The notes under the pieces were generated by a model, which was not told where the DNA came from, searched no databases, and worked only from the letters and a program-made list of their open reading frames with translations. 64,000 nucleotides of DNA, taken from the NCBI GenBank assembly GCA_951799405.1, contig OX637354.1:2914001-2978000 (forward strand), in the 5' to 3' direction. Each line of letters opens with the position of its first letter. Position 1 is the stretch's first letter. Made by a program: the position numbers and the translations under genes. Source of the stretch: Agapetus fuscipes. Lineage: Eukaryota; Arthropoda; Insecta; Trichoptera; Glossosomatidae. This document shows positions 6,612 through 63,134 of the stretch, piece by piece.

Positions 6612-8768
6612 AATCTGTAATCTAAGTTGCAAACATATATAACATTTGAGATTCATATTACATGCATTCTTACGAGCAGACATGTATAAGTTCTAATCTA
6701 ATCTAATCTAAGCTGCAAAGATATATATCATTTAAGATTTATATTAAATGCATTCCCACAAGCAGATATGTATAAGTTCCCGCTTACATATGCTGCATGT
6801 GTACTTACAACATAACAGCCCATTCCAAATGAACATAAGCCCTGCAACTCTTGCCAACCTTCCCTGAAACAAAGGTGAATTTGCAAAGTAAACCATTTTT
6901 TAAAGTATGGGTGGTCAGCCTCATACCAACCTATAAGTCAAGAAAATTATTTTGTGTATTTCTTTACATAATCTAAGTTGCAAAGATACATACCATTTAA
7001 GATTCATATTAAATGCATTCCCACACGCAGACAGGTACAAGTTCACGCTTACAAATGCCCAATGTGGACTTGCAAAATAAAAAAACTAATCTCAAATGAA
7101 CATAAGCCCTGCAACTTTTGCCGACTTTTCCTCAAACAGAGATAAAATTTGCATGGTAAACCATTGCTTACAGTATGGGTGGTCAGCCACATACTAACCT
7201 TTTAGTCAAGGAAATTATTTTGTTTAGTTCTATAATCTAAGTTGCAAAGATACATACCATTTGAGATTCATATTAAATGCATTCCCACAAGCAGACAGGT
7301 ACAAGTTCACGCTTACAAATTCCCAATGTGGACTTGCAAAATAAAAAAAACTAATCTCAAATGAACATAAGCCCTGCAACTCTTGCCGACTTTTCCTCAA
7401 ACAGAGATAAAATTTGCATTGTGAACCATTGCTTACAGTATGGGTGGTCAGCCACATACTAACCTTTTAGTCAAGGAAATTAATTTGTTTAGTTCATTAA
7501 TCTAAGTTGCAAAGATACATACCATTTGAGATTCATATTAAATGCATTCCCACAAGCAGACAGGTACAAGTTCACGCTTACAAATGCCCAATGTGGACTT
7601 GCAAAATAAAAAAAACTAATCTCAAATGAACATAAGCCCTGCAACTCTTGCCGACTTTTCCTCAAACAGAGATAAAATTTGCATTGTGAACCATTGCTTA
7701 CAGTATGGGTGGTCAGCCACATACTAACCTTTTAGTCAAGGAAATTAATTTGTTTAGTTCATTAATCTAAGTTGCAAAGATACATACCATTTGAGATTCA
7801 TATTAAATGCATTCCCACAAGCAGACAGGTACAAGTTCACGCTTACAAATGCCCAATGTGGACTTGCAAAATAAAAAAAACTAATCTCAAATGAACATAA
7901 GCCCTGCAACTCTTGCCGACTTTTCCTCAAACAGAGATAAAATTTTCATTGTAAAACAATCTTACAGTATGGGTGGTCAGCCACATACTAACCTATAAGT
8001 CAAGGAAATTATTTTGTTTAGTTCTATAATCTAAGTTGCAAAGATACATACCATTTGAGATTCATATAAAATGCATTCCCACAAGCAGACAGGTACAAGT
8101 TCACGCTTACAAATGCCCAATGTGGACTTGCAAAATAAAAAAAACTAATCTCAAATGAACATAAGCCCTGCAACTCTTGCCGACTTTTCCTCAAACAGAG
8201 ATAAAATTTGCATTGTGAACCATTGCTTACAGTATGGGTGGTCAGCCACATACTAACCTTTTAGTCAAGGAAATTATTTTGTGTAGTTCATTAATCTAAG
8301 TTGCAAGATACATACCATTTGAGATTCATATTAAATGCATTCCCACTAGCAGACAGGTATAAGTTCGCGCTTACAAATGCCCCATGTGGACTTATAAAAT
8401 AAAAAACTAATCTCAAATGAACATAAGCCCTGCAACTCTTGCCGACTTTTCCTCAAACAGAGATAAAATTTTCATGGTAAACCATTCTTACAGTATGGGT
8501 GGTCAGCCACATACTAACCTATAAGTCAAGGAAATTATTTTGTTAAGTTCTATAATCTAAGTTGCAAAGATACATACCAATCGAGATTCATATTAAATGC
8601 ATTCCCACAAGCAGACATTTATAAGTTCACGCTTACACATAATGCATGTTGACTTACAACATAAAAACCCAATCTCAAATTAATATAAGCCCTGCAACTC
8701 TTGCCAATCTTCCCTGAAACACAGCTGAAATCTTCAAAGTGAACCATTTTTTAAACTATGGGTGGTCG
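6612..8768 (-). repeat. Tandem array of R265 units (period about 265 bp)
   Basis: GTTGCAAAGATACATACC recurs at about 6712, 6977, 7241, 7506, 7771, 8035, 8300 and 8561, giving steps of 261 to 265 bp: about eight units head to tail plus a partial at 6612. Each unit is an R265 copy plus a short linker (TATTTTGTTTAGTTC type). Units from 7240 on are more alike than the outer ones, as expected for a satellite homogenised by unequal exchange. The array lies between Nle and the 3' end of the Osiris gene. No gene is seen in this stretch. Confidence 0.9.
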
Positions 8769-44404: not shown

Positions 44405-44586
44405 TACATGTCGTCGTCCCAGTGCTTGTTAGACTTATCTACTATTTTATTCAACGATGACCTTTTAATGAAACTGTCTAAAGAATTACATTCTACACAA
44501 TCTGAGCTAAGAACAAAACGTAAAACACGATAATGTGAGAGCTGCTTTAAATATTTTTTTAAATCAACTTACAGTTTTCATAATAC
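44405..44586 (-). mobile_element. Old MITE-D-related copy split by the DEK LTR element
   Basis: CCCAGTGCTTGTTAGACTTA to CAGTTTTCATAATAC; resumes at 47561 (ACATTGGTCCAGTACACATA). Other copies read straight through this point, which proves the LTR element inserted here. Confidence 0.8.
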
Positions 44587-45040
44587 TGTAACGAAATACA
44601 CTGGTAGATGTTTATTGGTGTACGTGTGTTTTGAGAGAATGTTCTGGCCCAGACGATTGTAATTGTAAGGTGTGTATGTAGGTAGGAAATGGACTCTTCA
44701 TGAAATAAATATGTCCAGAATCGTCTATACAACTGTGGTAGTGGAAGTTTCTAGGGCAGGCTGGAATGGCCCCTAGGTTCCGCTATAAGAAGGGCGACAA
44801 TGGGCTGAAGCGAGTCAGTCTTCGAAGCACTCACACAGAGGAATATCTAGTTACTAGGGCGACCAATATGGTGTAAAATAAATGTAATCTGTACGAAATA
44901 AATAAGTGTGTTAAAATAAATCTGTTAGAATAAGTCTGTTAAAAATAAATCTATTGTAAGAAAGTCTGTGTAAATAAACTGTATGGCTAACTTGTGTTAA
45001 ACTTGTGTTTTAATTAAAAGAACCCGGGAAAAACGTAACA
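44587..45040 (+). repeat. 5' LTR of the DEK element
   Basis: 454 bp, TG...CA. A TATA-like GCTATAAGAAGG is at 44782..44793. Several AATAAA motifs lie in the 3' half. Followed by PBS at 45042. Confidence 0.93.
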
Positions 45041-45041
45041 A

Positions 45042-45057
45042 TGGTGTCGGTGTGAAG
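45042..45057 (+). promoter_or_regulatory. Primer-binding site candidate
   Basis: TGGTGTCGGTGTGAAG directly after the LTR. TGG is the complement of a tRNA CCA end. The primer tRNA was not identified. Confidence 0.6.
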
Positions 45058-45395
45058 TTTAAAACCAAGTACCAAGTAAAAACTGTGCTTGAGACTTTTG
45101 AAAAATATATGTGGACAACATAATAAAAACTGATGAATAAAAAAAAAAAAGTTTTAAATAAAACTGATTAAACTTGAATTAAAAACGATCGTGTGGTTAC
45201 CCGCTAAAAATTTGATTGAAGTGTGGATAGATAACGTGTTAATAATATTGCGTTAGTGTTTGTAAATACTCATTAGCCGATGACGAAGCAAAGTAAATAA
45301 TCATTATCTAATATCATTATTTGAAATTTAAAAATATTTTTTGTGTAAAATAATTTGTTTTGAAGTAAATTTAAATTTTTGTTAAAATAAAAAAA

Positions 45396-47102
45396 ATGGC
45401 TAAGGTGAACATCAAGGACCTCAAAGTCTCGGAGCTTAAAAATGAGCTTCTGGAGAGGGACCTGGAGACCTCAGGAGGGAAGGCAGCCTTACAAGCACGC
45501 CTCATGGAGGCCTTGGAACAGTCAGGCGAAGACCCGGCATATTTTGTCATGGCGTCTGGAGGGGACCGCGAGCGAGCCGTGGAAGAGTTTAAAACAAAGA
45601 TGGCTGCCAACTTCAAGAGCTTGAGGGAAGACCTAGCTGGTTGGAAGGAGGAGATGGCTAAAAACCTAGCCTTAAAAATGTCGGTGGACACTGATAGTGT
45701 AAAATTAAGTGATAATCAGGATGACAAAAAGGCCGATATGTCAACTGAGGATGAGTCATCTCAGAAGTTGGGGAAGGGAGACCTGAAGGCCAAAAACAAC
45801 GGCCAGCTCAAGGCTGAGGACGCAGCTGACAGCAAAGATGACAAAGATGATGTCAAGTCGGCTGAAAACGGCAAGAGTGACTCGGCCGAGGTGAAGGCTG
45901 ACAAGGATGCGAAGGAGGAGACGGACGCCAAGGAGGAGGATGAGGACGCCAAGGACAAGAAGGGCAAGGCCAAGAAGGCCAACAGTGTGAAGAAGAAGCC
46001 CGCGCCCAAGAAGAAGGCGGAGGAGGCCGTGGAGGAGGCTCCCAAGAAGAAGAAGGCCGTGGAGCCGCCGGTGCCCGTGCCCGCGGGCCGGGGCATCCCC
46101 ATCGACCACATCCCCGACGTGGAGGTGGCCATCTCCAGGTTCAAGATGGAGGACCTCAAGTTCCGGTACAATCAATTGTGCCGCACGAACCTCATCAAGC
46201 GCAACAAAAAGAAGTTCAAGGGCTACGAGTTTGAGAAGGACACGCCTGAGCACAAGGCCAAGCTGGAGGAGGTGCAGAAGCTGGAGCCCAAGCAGCTGCG
46301 GACGCTGTGCGAGAAGCTGGGCTTGGACAAGAGGGGCGCGCCCACGGAGCTGGCCAGCAGGGTGGTGGGCTTCCTGCTGCTGCCAAAGCAGGTCTCCTCG
46401 CACGCCAGGGGGCTGATGAAGGAGAGGCCGGTGACTGACCGCGGCGAGGCCACGGGAGGCAGGCCCAGAAGGTCCGCTGCTGCTATTGTCAAGAGAGGTT
46501 ACTCTAACGAGGAGTATGAAACAGATCCGGAAACCAAAGTGCGGGGACCCAAAGTCAGCAGGGATGAATTAGGGGATTCAGATGGCTCGTACAACCCGAG
46601 TGACTCCGGACAGGAGGCGGACTCTGACTTTGACCCGTCAGTGGGGGAGGGGGGCGCTCCCTCCCGCAGGCGCCGTGCCCCCGCCCGCAGGGGCTCAGCC
46701 AAGCAGAGCAAGCAGAAGGGACGACCCAAGCATGGCGCGGCAGGAAGCCACTCAGCGAGTCAGAGGACGAGAGCGAGAGTGAGAACTTCGCTTCCGAGCA
46801 GGAGAGCGGCTCCGACGACCAAGGATTCTGATCCTTTGACGCCGGCGAGCAAGCGGGGCCTAGGAGCGGTGGCCGCCCGGGGACGCGAAGCGGTGCCCCC
46901 AGCCAAGGAAAGGCGCCCATGCCGGCCGCCAAGAGGAAAGCACCCCCCCCCACACCAGCCAGCAATGACGGGCAAAACCCTAAGGGAAAAATACCGTGGA
47001 ACGTCATTTTTCCTGACCACTGGATGCAACTGTGGGTCAAACTGCCCGTACCTTCTTAAAGAAAAGACTGTTCCGGGGCGGAACAGTCTAAGGGGGGGAT
47101 AA
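45396..47102 (+). CDS. SAP/coiled-coil (Gag-like) + DEK-like chromatin protein fusion
   Basis: 568 codons. Residues 1-94: a SAP-type motif (VSELKNELLERDLETSGGK, LQARLMEALEQSG) and a coiled coil, as at the N-terminus of some retroelement Gag proteins. From Met95 (MSVDTDSV, plausibly the host start codon): a Lys/Asp/Glu-rich stretch, then a DEK-type domain (about 228-335) with IPIDHIPDVEVAISRFKMED, KFKGYEFEKDTPEHKAKLEE and LCEKLGLDKRGAPTELASRV, then RRSAAAIVKRGY and an acidic/basic tail. DEK is a chromatin and DNA-topology protein that binds cruciform DNA. From about residue 445 the frame seems shifted: the +1 frame encodes the acidic serine-rich run SESEDESESENFASEQES expected of DEK. The printed C-terminus running into the polypurine tract is probably not original. 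Confidence 0.85.
   Translation: MAKVNIKDLKVSELKNELLERDLETSGGKAALQARLMEALEQSGEDPAYFVMASGGDRERAVEEFKTKMAANFKSLREDLAGWKEEMAKNLALKMSVDTDSVKLSDNQDDKKADMSTEDESSQKLGKGDLKAKNNGQLKAEDAADSKDDKDDVKSAENGKSDSAEVKADKDAKEETDAKEEDEDAKDKKGKAKKANSVKKKPAPKKKAEEAVEEAPKKKKAVEPPVPVPAGRGIPIDHIPDVEVAISRFKMEDLKFRYNQLCRTNLIKRNKKKFKGYEFEKDTPEHKAKLEEVQKLEPKQLRTLCEKLGLDKRGAPTELASRVVGFLLLPKQVSSHARGLMKERPVTDRGEATGGRPRRSAAAIVKRGYSNEEYETDPETKVRGPKVSRDELGDSDGSYNPSDSGQEADSDFDPSVGEGGAPSRRRRAPARRGSAKQSKQKGRPKHGAAGSHSASQRTRARVRTSLPSRRAAPTTKDSDPLTPASKRGLGAVAARGREAVPPAKERRPCRPPRGKHPPPHQPAMTGKTLREKYRGTSFFLTTGCNCGSNCPYLLKEKTVPGRNSLRGG
47066..47088 (+). repeat. Hairpin before the 3' LTR
   Basis: GACTGTTCC, loop GGGGC, GGAACAGTC: a perfect 9-bp stem just ahead of the polypurine tract. 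Role unknown. Confidence 0.85.
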
Positions 47103-47556
47103 TGTAACGAAATACACTGGTAGATGTTTATTGGTGTACGTGTGTTTTGAGAGAATGTTCTGGCCCAGACGATTGTAATTGTAAGGTGTGTATGTAGGTA
47201 GGAAATGGACTCTTCATGAAATAAATATGTCCAGAATCGTCTATACAACTGTGGTAGTGGAAGTTTCTAGGGCAGGCTGGAATGGCCCCTAGGTTCCGCT
47301 ATAAGAAGGGCGACAATGGGCTGAAGCGAGTCAGTCTTCGAAGCACTCACACAGAGGAATATCTAGTTACTAGGGCGACCAATATGGTGTAAAATAAATG
47401 TAATCTGTACGAAATAAATAAGTGTGTTAAAATAAATCTGTTAGAATAAGTCTGTTAAAAATAAATCTATTGTAAGAAAGTCTGTGTAAATAAACTGTAT
47501 GGCTAACTTGTGTTAAACTTGTGTTTTAATTAAAAGAACCCAGGAAAAACGTAACA
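47103..47556 (+). repeat. 3' LTR of the DEK element
   Basis: Same length and sequence as the 5' LTR but for one base near 47542; followed by TSD ATAC. Confidence 0.93.
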
Positions 47557-47776
47557 ATACACATTGGTCCAGTACACATACAGATATTGCTCTTGTAAAG
47601 TAACCTCTGAAGCGCTATTCTACTAAATTCCTTACCTTACCGGTTTGCGTCCAATAATAAGGTGTATCTACTGTGATTTTTTTTTTATCTATGTGCAGTT
47701 CTTTCGCAAGTGCTAGCAAGCTCCGACTTGGATTGATATCCAAAGTGTTAGGAATTTAGCAGAATAGCTCTTCTAT

Positions 47777-48030: not shown

Positions 48031-48339
48031 AATGGACATAAGACAAACAAGCACTGAGAGACGATGCATTAATAGAAACGCATGAGTAATGGCATGCATG
48101 ATAGCCAGTAATTACAATGCACAGATGAAGTGTACACGAGTCAGTAGGTGTTACGTATAACTGAGTTCTATTTCACTTTCTGTGGAGGAACATCTTTAGC
48201 TACACATGTTAACTAATATCTGCCGCCTTTCTCTGAGCTGCACACAGGCCATGCTACAATGGTGGTAGTCTCTACGTGTGAGTGAATCTATTGGTATAAA
48301 TTAATTCATACACCTAGGTCAATCATCTCATGTTGGGAT

Positions 48340-49310
48340 TGAAACTATTGGTTCCGCAACCAGCCTTTTTGAGACAATTGTATCTGTAGCCTGTCTTGTC
48401 GAGGCTGTTGGATCAGCAATCAACCTAGCTGAGACTATTGGATCCTCAGGAAACCTTTTTGAGACTATTGGATTAGCAGCCAGGCTTGTTGATTCTATAG
48501 GATCAGCAGGAAGCCTTGTTAAGATCATTGGATCAGCAGGAAGCCTTTTTGAGACTATCGGATCAGCAGCCAGGCTTGTTAAGACCATTGGATCAGCAGG
48601 AAGCCTTTTTGAGACTATTGGATCAGCAGGAAGCCTTGTTCAGACTATTGGATCAGCAGGAAACCTTGTTGTTGAGACTATTAGATCATCCTGAATCCTT
48701 GTTGAGACTATTGGATCAGCATGAAGCCTTGTTCAGACTATTGGATCTGCAGGAAGCCTTGTTAAGACCATTGGATCAGCAGGAAGCCTTTTTGAAACTA
48801 TTAGATCAGCAACCAGGCTTGTTGAGACTATTGGATCAGCAGCCAACCTTGCTGAGGCTGTTGGAACTGCAGACAGCCTTGTTGAGACTATTTTAGTAGC
48901 AGTTAGTGTTGGATCATCAGGAAGCCTTGTTGTGACTATTGGATCAGAAGCCAGCCTTGTTGAAACTATTGAATCAGAAGCCTGCCTTGTTGAGACTATT
49001 GGATCAGCAGTCAGCCTTGTAGAGACTTTTGTATCAGGAGCGAGCCTTGCAGAGACTATTGGATAAGCGTAAAGCCTTCTTGAGGCCATTGGATCAGCAG
49101 CCTATCTTGCTGAGAGTATTGAAGCAGCAGAAAGCCTTGTTCAAACTATTGGATCAGCAGCCAGGCTTGTTGAGACCTTTGTATCAGCAGCCCGGCTTTG
49201 AGACTTTGGCAGCAAGCCTTGCAAAAACTATTGGAACATCAGAAAGCCCTGTTGAGACTATTGGATCAATAGGAAGCCTTTTTGAGACTATTAGACCAAA
49301 CCTCAAACTA
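48340..49310 (+). repeat. Minisatellite, 30-bp unit, about 32 copies
   Basis: GGATCAGCAGGAAGCCTTGT followed by TGAGACTATT repeats with variation. Because 30 is divisible by 3, frames stay open on both strands as 10-residue repeats (LLDQQEALLR; PIVSTRLAAD). Nothing else supports a gene: no splice signals, and frames break between blocks. Confidence 0.92.
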
Positions 49311-59074: not shown

Positions 59075-59177
59075 AAACAGTTAAAAAGGGTGTTATTCCA
59101 ATTAAATTGTGTTCCAACCAAGTGTCAACAAGTTTTCACCAAAAATAGTGTTTGAAAATCATTTTGTCAAAAAAAAA

Positions 59178-60014
59178 ATGGCGACCGGCGAAAATCCAAC
59201 CACATGCGTTGCGGCGGTTAGCGTCAAGCTAGCTCCTTTCTGGAAGGAGAATGCCGCTTTGTGGATTCTCCGAGCGGAAACACAATTCCGCCAGGCCAAC
59301 ATCACTGTGGACATAACAAAATTTGACCACTTGGTAATGAGTCTGGATGATGCAACGCTCACAATTGTAGCTGATATTGTGACGGCGCCCCCAGCAACAG
59401 AAAAATACGAAGCTCTGAAAAAAGCACTTCTAAACGCTTTCCACGAGTCTGAAGAGACTAGAATAACAAGGTTGCTCAATGACATACACCTGGGAGACAC
59501 AAAACCATCACACATGCTGCTCAAAATGAAACAGCTGGCGGGAACAAACTCAGCAGATAGCACAATCGTGAAAAGACTGTGGTTACATCGATTACCACAA
59601 TCCGTCCAAGTTATCTTATCTGGGTCAAATAACCAACCGCTGTCAGAGCAGGCAGCAACGGCAGACCGGATCATGGAGGTATACCAGAACAGCGAGCATA
59701 CTGTTGCTGCGACCTCCCAGTCCTTCGCTCTCACTGCATCTTCTACGTCACCCAAGACTGAAGAATCCAACATGCAGTATATAATTAAACAACTGGAAGC
59801 AATCAATAAAAGGTTAGAGCGCCTTGAGCAGTGCAACCGAAACCGCAGCCAGAGCCGTAACCGAAATCACAACCGTGACCTGAAAAATAATCAGAACGGG
59901 AAACAGAACCAGCAGACAGGTTACTGTTACTTCCATAATAAGTACGGAAACAAAGCGTACAAGTGCACCGAACCCTGCAAGTTTCCGGGAAACTTCACAA
60001 GCCCCCCACAGTAG
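59178..60014 (+). CDS. Gag of Gypsy element (278 aa)
   Basis: Structural protein of the retrotransposon particle. Start MATGENP chosen at 59178; the frame upstream only has GTG. Capsid-like region with [18 protein letters not shown] near residue 20; a basic Arg/Asn-rich stretch ([14 protein letters not shown]) near 240; then a zinc-binding box [18 protein letters not shown] (CX2HX9CX3C). Stop TAG at 60012. Pol overlaps in the -1 frame; CCCCCCA at 60002..60008, one codon before the stop, is a candidate slippery site. Confidence 0.92.
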
Positions 60015-63000
60015 CAGCGAGTGAGGAGCTAAAGAAAAATTGCTGCAGACTTGTCATCAGAGACCAGCGGTCCAACAAAAGGTTTTTGATCGATACTGGG
60101 TCTGACATTTCAGCGATCCCAAAAACGGTAAATACACCTCATAAGCTAGCATCACCAACACTGTATGCTGCAAATGGTACAAGAATTCAGACGTATGGCA
60201 CGCACACCATCTCCATTGATGTAGGCTTGCGCCGTCTCTTTTCATGGACGTTCATCATTGCAGACGTCACTCAACCGATTATAGGTGCGGATTTTTTAAG
60301 CCACCACAATCTTCTCGTGGACCTCAAGAAGAAACAACTCGTCGATGGTACCACAGGGCTCATAGCCATCGCTAACCGGTTGCTAGGCCCATCAGATGGC
60401 CTGTCAACTATTGACGTGAATAACAAAGACGATTATAACATGATACTTCAACAGTTCCCAAGCATCACGAGACCTCAAATCCATCATGCATCTACACGAC
60501 ATAGTGTCAAGCACGCCATCCAAACAACTGGACGCCCTGTTTTTGCGAAAGCTCGTCGACTAGCACCAAAACAGTTGGAAGCTGCTAAGGAGGAGTTTAG
60601 AAAAATGTGTGAGCAAGGTATCTGCCAACCATCAAAGAGCAGCTGGTCGAGCCCACTGCATATGGTCAGTAAGCCCAATGGAGGTTGGCGACCATGCGGC
60701 GACTATAGACAGTTGAATGCTCAAACGATACCGGATCGATACCCGATCCCGAGTTTACAGGATTTCTCACACAAATTGAACAAAATGAGCATCTTCAGCA
60801 CTATTGATCTTACTCGAGCATACCACCAAATTCCAATTGAAGATGATGATGTGGAAAAAACCGCAATAATCACACCGTTCGGGTTATTTGAATTTAAAGC
60901 GATGCAATTTGGATTGTGCAACGCTGCACAGAGTTTTCAACGGTTCATGCACAAAGTTCTGCAAGACTTGGAATTCTGTTTTGTCTACATAGACGACATC
61001 CTCATAGCATCAAGAGATGCAACGCAACATAAAGATCATCTCAGACAACTGTTCACAAGACTCACCGCAATATGGACTTGTGATCAATCCTGACAAATGT
61101 GTCTTCGGTGCTCAGGAAGTAAAATTCTTAGGCCAACTCATCAACAAACAAGGGATAAAGCCCGCTGAAGAGAAAGTGAAGGCAATTTGTGATTACGCGT
61201 TGCCCACAACTGCAAAAGACTTGAGAAGATTCTTAGGAATGATAAATTTCTATAGAAAATTCATCCCCAAGGCAATTGAAAAACAGCAAATACTCTACGA
61301 CTCCATCGCGAAAGTGAAAAAAGGGGACAAGAAACCGATCACATGGACAGAAGAAATGATTCATGCTTTTCAACAAACAAAAACTGATCTGGCAAACGCA
61401 ACATTGCTAATACACTCTGATGAAAACGCAGAAATCTCTATCATGGTGGACGCATCCAACACTGCAATGGGAGCCGTCTTGCAACAATGGACCCACAACC
61501 AATGGTCTCCGCTGGCATTCTACTCCAAGAAATTTTCAGCAGCTCAATTGAAATACAGCACATATGACAGAGAGCTGACAGCACTATATGAAGCTGTAAA
61601 ATATTTCCGCAGAATGTTGGAAGGTAGAAGTTTCCATATTAAAACGGATCATAAGCCCATAACTTATGCATTTAACAAAAACAAACAAAACGCATCTCCA
61701 CGACAAGAGCGACAATTGGATTATGTGTCCCAATTCACCACGGACATAAGATATGTGCCAGGTGAGGAAAATGTTGTTGCAGATGCACTTTCAAGAGTGG
61801 AAACTATTGCAATTCCACCGCAAACCGACTTCGAGCAAATGGCAGAAGAACAAAAACAAGATTCAGAACTAGAAACATTTTTCACTGAAAATTCTTCACT
61901 CCAGATGAAACAACTATTAATTCCCGGAGGCAATAAAATGATTTGGTGTGACACATCAACAGGAACTATAAGACCATTTGTTCCCAGAAGTATGAGAAAA
62001 AATATTATACAGCAATACCATGATATCAGTCATACTGGACCAAAGCCTACGTACAAATCAATAAGAACAAGGTACGTTTGGCCCAACATGCAAAGTGACA
62101 TAAAAAAGTTGGTAAAGACATGTATCAGTTGCCAAAGGACTAAAACATCCAGGCACACAACAAGTCCACTGCAAGAATTTCCTACACCAGACGAAAGATT
62201 CCAGTGGATACACATAGACTTGGTAGGACCACTCCCACCATCTCAAGGACAAACCTACTGTCTGACCATCATCGATCGATATACAAGATGGCCAGAAGCT
62301 ATACCAATAAGTGACATCACAGCCAAAACAGTGGCTGCCGCTCTGATCACAAACTGGATAGCAAGATTCGGCGTTCCTGCAACTATTGTCACTGATCAAG
62401 GACGACAGTTTGAATCCCAGCTATTTTTCGAAATCACAAAAATACTAGGAATCAAACACAACAGGACAACAGCCTATCACCCTCAGTCTAACGGCTTAAT
62501 TGAAAGATGGCATCGTACCCTCAAGGCTGCTATCAAAGCTCACACAACAGTGAAATGGACCGAACATCTCCCGATGATTCTCCTTGGCTTGCGGAATGCT
62601 ATTCGCGAGGACATTGGACACTCTCCAGCAGAACTGACGTATGGAACTACCCTACGACTGCCAGGTGACTTCTTCCAAGATACAACACCAGCAGAACCAG
62701 GTTCATTCGCAAGAGAACTACAGCAGTCATTACAAGATATAAGACCAACACCAACAGGCAATCATGGGAAAAGACGGACCTTTGTACACAAAGCACTGAA
62801 AGATTGTACACATGTGTTTGTGCGAACTGACGCTTCTCGTACTCCACTACAAGCACCATACGAGGGACCTTTCTCTGTTGCCAAAAAGAGTGAAAAATAC
62901 TTTTCAGTAATGATAAAAGGTCAAGCTAAAAACATCACCATAGATCGTTTGAAACCAGCTTACATGCCTGAAGATACAACAGAAACTACAAACGCAGACC

Positions 63001-63134
63001 CAAAACCAGTACCAGTAGTAGCTAGAGAAAACACACCAACAACTGCTACTCCTGCAACTCCTGGGACTCCTGCTACTACAACCACTACAACAAGATCGGG
63101 CCGAAAAGTACACTTTCCAGACAGATTCTACTAA
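59963..63134 (+). pseudogene. Pol of Gypsy element, broken by one frameshift in RT
   Basis: Frame 1 (59963..61093): protease with [12 protein letters not shown] with [11 protein letters not shown]. Frame 2 (overlapping, to 63134): end of RT, RNase H ([32 protein letters not shown]), integrase zinc box (H-H-C-C around 62020..62150), DDE core ([30 protein letters not shown]) and a GPF-type C-terminus. The change of frame falls near 61062..61068, consistent with one extra base. No other stop is seen. No env. Expected to be made by -1 frameshifting from gag. Confidence 0.93.

Follow-up and report, generated by a model that had tools for sequence, protein, structure and literature searches.

How does the coding sequence of a chromatin protein, DEK, come to lie between the long terminal repeats (LTRs) of an insect retrotransposon? 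The question is raised by G000:C22:2914001-2978000, a stretch of 64,000 nucleotides of the Agapetus fuscipes genome (hereafter the window) within a 618-Mb assembly of 148 contigs. Positions 44583-47560 of this stretch are occupied by what is very probably an LTR retrotransposon of Ty3/gypsy type, non-autonomous, which took up the host gene DEK by transduction. Loci and pieces fetched from the same genome carry L0xx labels and database proteins P000x labels.

The initial annotation had described two 454-bp LTRs with one difference, an ATAC target site duplication (TSD), sites resembling a primer-binding site (PBS) and a polypurine tract, and a single open reading frame (ORF), all of which are seen at this locus (Table 1). 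The insertion, including its TSDs, measures 2,978 bp and has one long ORF only. The near-identical LTRs, their TG...CA ends, the TSD, the PBS-like site, the polypurine tract and a dispersed, multicopy occurrence are those of an LTR retrotransposon. In the 568-aa ORF the sole Pfam match above cut-off is a SAP domain (residues 6-41, E=1.2e-10), after which comes a shortened coiled coil, in agreement with the SAP/coiled-coil start noticed earlier. No protease, reverse transcriptase (RT), RNase H or integrase was found in the ORF by the Pfam scan, and the insertion thus does not qualify as an autonomous Ty3/gypsy element.

Table 1. Features of the DEK-bearing element, in window coordinates.
Feature	Position	Strand	Basis
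Left TSD, ATAC	44583..44586	+	Sequence; 4-bp duplications also flank other copies
5' LTR, 454 bp, TGTAACG...CGTAACA	44587..45040	+	Sequence and LTR-pair comparison
PBS-like site, TGGTGTCGGTGTGAAG	45042..45057	+	Identical stretch after the LTRs of Gag-bearing Ty3 elements L056 and L058
Fusion ORF, 568 aa, stop codon abutting the 3' LTR	45396..47102	+	ORF translation
Gag N-terminal piece: SAP (residues 6-41) and shortened coiled-coil-like stretch, without capsid	45396..45670	+	Domain scan, Gag alignments
Captured DEK, nine host exons without introns	45671..46958	+	Alignment to host gene
DEK core (pseudo-SAP/SAP), lacking four residues present in host DEK	46077..46400	+	DEK alignments, profile match
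3' tail with a degenerate CCCH finger, up to and including the polypurine tract; resembles the terminus of the last ORF in a Ty3 element	46984..47102	+	Alignment
Palindrome, AGACTGTTCCGGGGCGGAACAGTCT	47065..47089	+	Similar in two other Ty3 elements, L060 and L061
Polypurine tract, AAGGGGGGGA	47090..47099	+	Sequence
3' LTR, 454 bp, differing from the 5' LTR at one base	47103..47556	+	Sequence and LTR-pair comparison
Right TSD, ATAC	47557..47560	+	Sequence

DEK_C, a domain absent from the fusion ORF, was used as a query and has exactly one match in the genome, C11:946574-946732 on the minus strand; reading 15.7 kb around this match revealed the host DEK gene, separate and intron-bearing, on another contig. 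Nine host exons, from C11:960427 to C11:950038, align in order with element DNA ~45671-46958. The host introns, the absence of which had been named as a check on the annotation, are gone, all eight of them, and six of the eight exon joins are visibly exact at host GT-AG sites. The exon 3/4 and 7/8 joins fall inside deletions of ~134 and 40 bases, respectively, the exon 3/4 edge being uncertain by a base or so. Element and host DEK DNA are 94.9% identical (66 differences in 1,291 aligned bases). The 5' join is at, or a few bases from, the edge of the start-codon exon (host cag followed at the exon edge by AGCTCTTAAAAATG; element CCTAGCCTTAAAAATG), and the 3' join exactly at the end of the ninth captured exon (CACACCAG), after which other sequence follows. 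The DEK reading frame is kept to ~46732, lost to ~46820, regained to ~46906 and lost again, and beyond residue ~445 it is partly lost because of the 40-nt deletion, one +1 and one -1 shift. The earlier proposal that DEK had been captured from its own start codon and spans residues 95-445, from Met95 on, stands as regards the identity of the protein and the involvement of the start-codon exon, but its boundaries have to be moved: homology begins at residue ~92, the captured piece starts at or near the 5' edge of that exon, and DEK-derived DNA reaches ~46958 (residue ~521), partly out of frame past ~445.

Residues 214-420 share 56-60% identity with five DEKs, four of them from named Lepidoptera, and the nearest database proteins to the DEK part are lepidopteran. 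A profile of six sequences (the fusion ORF and the five DEKs) matches the PDB DEK chains 2jx3 (core), 8kcy and 9l1x (longer). By sequence, the captured piece keeps the DEK core, four residues of which are deleted, at the place of the DEK domain proposed around residues 228-335. DEK_C was not found in the fusion ORF by the Pfam scan, although it is present in the host gene; the C-terminal domain (1q1v) is lost. An in-frame Gag-DEK fusion and a separate source gene with introns are the marks of a transduced cellular gene, and at the level of sequence the alignment demonstrates an RNA-level capture of DEK, joined in frame to a Ty3-type Gag start. Since both outer joins sit at or beside DEK exon edges, a spliced chimeric RNA is the likely source of the capture.

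Residues 1-94 alone have a single match in the protein database, P0003, a 349-aa SAP protein in which, by eye, the SAP domain is followed by a coiled-coil-like repeat and a capsid-like stretch. Within the same genome the capsid part of P0003 matches a very abundant Gag family (150 scored places among 929 candidates), three members of which lie in frames of 1,689-1,853 aa. Residues 1-58 correspond to the SAP-domain start of Ty3/gypsy Gags of this genome: compared with six fetched 5' regions, the first 175 bases of the ORF show 92-96% DNA identity to L054, L055 and L057, match the Gag starts of L056 and L058 weakly (65% DNA, 53% protein) and match L059 in the coiled coil only. The L054 Gag, which lies within a 1,843-aa open frame, has SAP and Retrotrans_gag (PF03732) above the cut-offs; in L055 SAP is above and Retrotrans_gag below the cut-off, and L057 aligns onward into the same capsid-like stretch (by alignment, as the Retrotrans_gag scan covered L054 and L055). 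The closest Gags read, L054, L055 and L057, do not contain the DEK part and run into capsid-like sequence instead. Residues 1-94 do not belong to DEK: in the 15.7 kb of the host DEK gene the Gag piece meets nothing but short chance matches, and the five aligned DEKs have no counterpart of it. An ordinary DEK with an N-terminal SAP domain was rejected as a reading of the ORF. Protein searches for the fusion in other species, one of them capped at 8,000 candidates, probably owing to low-complexity words, gave among the matches listed nothing other than ordinary DEKs and a single SAP-Gag fragment, P0003.

The 3' end of the element is also of Ty3 type. From ~46984 to the 3' LTR the DNA is similar to L060, the 3' terminus of the L054 element (76.6% over 124 columns, palindrome and polypurine tract included); the 25 bases at 46959-46983 between DEK and the tail are assigned to neither, and in the host DEK gene a tail query matched 13 bases at most. 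The L060 equivalent of the tail encodes a CCCH zinc finger, two ligands of which are changed in the window ORF (by eye). The second half of the element LTR is 78-80% identical to the LTRs of L056, L058 and L061 (79.7% for L056), and no LTR match was found at E<=0.01 in the L054, L055 and L057 pieces. The element is, to judge from these matches, a mosaic of relatives, and its Gag start and 3' end mark it as non-autonomous and Ty3/gypsy-derived.

Two features of the Ty3 relatives may be recorded beside this. In one SAP-Gag Ty3 element (L060:602-1102) a CCCH zinc finger, which scores above the PF00642 cut-off, closes the last ORF just before the polypurine tract. The stretch that precedes the finger has no Pfam match and is shared with L061 (GGG..NRDWRIIR-like); the impression of a macro domain at the L060/L061 end was given up, the CCCH zinc finger being the only Pfam match at cut-off. 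The palindrome upstream of the polypurine tract is largely retained in L060 and L061, diverged as these are, and may be an RNA hairpin.

The annotation had suggested a search for other copies of the LTR and the ORF, and this proved that the window insertion is not a single oddity: the 32-base Gag-DEK junction (<=3 mismatches) occurs 293 times in the assembly (reversed control, 0) and the LTR-PBS join 212 times (control, 0). An assembly artefact was considered and rejected. The LTR search gave 40 scored places among 1,091 candidates and the DEK-part search 109 among 586, all at 98-100% identity; 108 of these 109 have no stop over the 375-codon DEK part, a figure biased towards intactness as the 109 are the best-scoring copies. 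Of twenty LTR loci fetched, 17 have two LTRs each, one of which is truncated in one pair, and three have a single LTR. At L046 (C7:18447350-18457340) a single LTR of the DEK family has an open stretch on either side, both of which resemble, by eye, pieces of a protein kinase (MARK/Par-1-like); because of this position, LTRs of the DEK element may have landed within genes.

The spread of the family is recent, as 22 LTR pairs differ at 6 of 9,895 bases, and the element was rightly called young. These pairs are the 17 fetched ones, which were picked by best LTR match and lean young, the window pair, and those of four extra copies chosen from the zero-mismatch junction list because they stood outside the best-scored lists. 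The four extra pairs have 0 mismatches, and three of the four copies keep an ORF of 570-572 aa, the other being frame-shifted. With the mutation rate reported for Heliconius, said to be 2.9e-9 per site and generation, the LTR-pair divergence corresponds to ~1e5 generations. The DEK divergence is evidently older than the current burst.

Not all copies are alike. Among the 17, the ORF of L033 lacks its start, and DEK carries internal deletions in L034, L042 and L050. L034 and L038 have a longer Gag coiled coil; the longer leader of L034 is 83-92% identical over ~200 bases to the leaders of Gag-bearing L062-L064, and four copies of the long-Gag type, L034 and L038 included, top the list of matches to L034's own Gag start. 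L073 combines a long coiled coil with the four DEK core residues (LHQF) lost in the window copy. As L034, L038 and L073 hold more Gag, and L073 the core residues, the family lost sequence after the capture.

We propose that the element arose in the following steps: (i) a transcript would have formed in which the Gag start was joined to DEK mRNA, most likely a spliced chimera from an insertion in the DEK gene; (ii) reverse transcription would have rejoined its 3' end to a Ty3 tail, polypurine tract and LTR, the structure now seen, with the loss of capsid, protease, RT and integrase; (iii) as the sequences show, the Gag-DEK element with its own LTR persisted, shrank stepwise (coiled coil, leader, four core residues) and recently rose to ~300 copies; and (iv) it would be copied in trans by proteins of SAP-Gag Ty3 elements. 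Mobilisation in trans by a helper is plausible, and candidate helpers are at hand, SAP-Gag Ty3 elements being abundant in the genome and having the PBS, the LTR ends or the Gag start in common with the element. Expression of the fusion protein from the LTR promoter is probable.

Some points weigh against this account. Its evidence is genomic sequence throughout. At the 5' side the join misses the exon edge expected from splicing by one base, and deletions cover two of the inner joins, so that the outer joins may have arisen by template switching. Among the pieces read, the best relatives of the Gag start and of the LTR are found in different Ty3 elements, which implies that the parent was itself recombinant, has been lost or has escaped sampling. 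Some of the divergence between host and element could be older than the capture, if this took place in another species. Finally, the search with residues 1-94 for an autonomous partner, suggested by the annotation, succeeded only in part: SAP-Gag Ty3 relatives were found, but the limited set read contains no autonomous element that has the same LTR. That check, made by eye, set 43 zero-mismatch LTR-PBS places (C1-C12; 100 listed of 212) against 100 listed junctions of 293; 36 of the 43 have a listed junction within ~0.8 kb, and of the other seven, four were read, all of which carry DEK.

A captured DEK could still be a working part of the element. According to this reading, which is compatible with capture and which we consider unlikely, the SAP/coiled coil of the Gag-DEK protein would join helper Gag particles and the DEK core would bind nucleosomes; equally doubtful is that nucleosome binding would ease nuclear entry, integration or escape from silencing. 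The frame open in 108 of 109 copies would fit, albeit with the bias of best-scoring copies, and of the four DEK deletions within the first ~350 codons three have a length divisible by three, and so has the fourth if the host frame is used to place the uncertain exon 3/4 edge. Over 349 codons host and window DEK differ with dS 0.127 and dN 0.029 (synonymous and nonsynonymous divergence), an unweighted ratio of 0.23, and a three-sequence comparison with L073 (348 codons) places 26 synonymous and 17 nonsynonymous changes on the stem from host to element ancestor, below the neutral ~2:1. This stem shows constraint, but it includes the host branch and any time before capture. The element branches carry 10 synonymous and 14 nonsynonymous changes, and DEK variation among 21 copies comprises 43 nonsynonymous and 22 synonymous changes against a neutral expectation of 68% nonsynonymous (p=0.42), which uses assumed weights (kappa 3, C/G to A/T weight doubled); the variants in untranslated regions meant to set these weights (272, 108 of them transitions) looked spoiled by misalignment. 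A first count of polymorphism in 17 copies (pN/pS 0.41 in Gag, 1.28 in the tail, and in three parts of DEK 0.23, 0.96 and 0.59, or ~0.5 over the whole of DEK) was discarded because mutation-bias weighting removed the signal. Twenty-four residues differ between host and window DEK, 15 of them element-derived, three host-derived and six ambiguous, as judged against five other DEKs (P0006 being partial). The changes I>K, M>K, D>G and P>S at residues invariant in the five compared DEKs, and the missing DEK_C, also speak against a working protein. DEK variation in the current burst shows no constraint and looks neutral. As the burst shows none and the stem is mixed, no claim is made here that the element profits from its DEK part; it may now be mostly a passenger.

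A variant of capture, to which we give little credence, is horizontal arrival: the element would have come with the DEK of a related species, the 5% difference being species divergence. At one well-aligned site the element has T, as do the five other DEKs, where the host has M, and the DEK divergence long predates that of the LTR pairs; both would be expected. Peculiarities of the host DEK (e.g. FEKDTPEHKAKL) are, however, common to the element, which implies that the donor would be a close relative; moreover, the Gag piece matches elements of the same genome, in which the longer-Gag copies and L073 with its full DEK core are also present. A DEK processed pseudogene dropped by chance into an ordinary LTR element would likewise lack introns, as a retrogene does, but is highly improbable and was rejected, as there is neither poly(A) nor a DEK_C end after the DEK part, the ends coincide with exon edges, DEK is in frame with Gag, capsid and Pol are lost and 293 junction copies exist.

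Transduction of DEK by the retrotransposon itself is the reading we retain. If it does act, which we think unlikely, the Gag-start/DEK fusion might co-assemble with helper Gag, the DEK core reaching open chromatin or blunting silencing, or else the copies might feed PIWI-interacting RNAs (piRNAs) that lower germline DEK. Were this true, the element would be an insect counterpart of an oncogene-carrying retrovirus, maintained for millions of generations, in which a host chromatin factor was turned into a tool of a selfish element. One genome holds much of the record, namely the intron-bearing source gene, the Gag relatives, the longer-Gag copies and ~300 fusion copies. Testable questions follow: how LTR elements splice in host exons, whether a captured chromatin gene aids an element's dispersal, and whether carriage by an element exposes a host gene to piRNA targeting.

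Elsewhere in the window, positions 59109-63134 hold another Ty3/gypsy-type element, with DUF7041 (PF23055) in its first ORF, RNase H and integrase in its last and, by eye, a protease/RT-like middle ORF in overlapping frames. A long 30-bp minisatellite (TTGAGACTATTGGATCAGCAGGAAGCCTTG) occupies 48339-49292 and reads as a 10-residue LRLLDQQEAL-like repeat or, in another frame, ETIGSAGSLV-like, both broken by stops. At 469-1242 an ORF resembles, by eye, the end of a LINE-type reverse transcriptase.

Within the same genome, the SAP-Gag Ty3 elements (L054/L060, L055 and L057) are like the DEK element in the Gag start and, in L060, in the 3' tail and polypurine region; they differ by their capsid-like continuation and by having neither DEK nor, as said, a similar LTR in the pieces read. 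Acute transforming retroviruses carry Gag-oncogene fusions, and transduction of cellular genes is their classic trick. As in the DEK element, an intronless host mRNA is fused in frame to the Gag start, viral genes are lost and a helper is needed; the DEK element differs in being of Ty3/gypsy type, in residing in an insect in hundreds of copies, and in its cargo, a chromatin protein and not a growth-signalling gene. Maize Bs1 is an LTR element whose ORF holds host gene pieces, segments of three genes (PMC13317346, PMC7264820), whereas the DEK element has nine exons of one gene in ~300 copies; the latter report states that transduced ORFs are present in one or few copies (PMC7264820). Crocodilian endogenous retroviruses captured KIT-ligand or nectin3 mRNA, the latter in place of env with six insertions in one lineage (PMC4299795). 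They resemble the DEK element in that a host mRNA was captured in an LTR element lineage, but they are elements of vertebrates, and DEK occupies the place of the Gag capsid and Pol and not, like nectin3, that of env. Bdelloid LTR elements with extra ORFs are described in a further report (PMC5408684). In the open-licence literature we found no description of DEK with LTR elements, or of such insect captures. Gene transduction by LTR elements is thus already known; a fusion of a Gag start with a chromatin protein, as an insect family of several hundred copies, is new.

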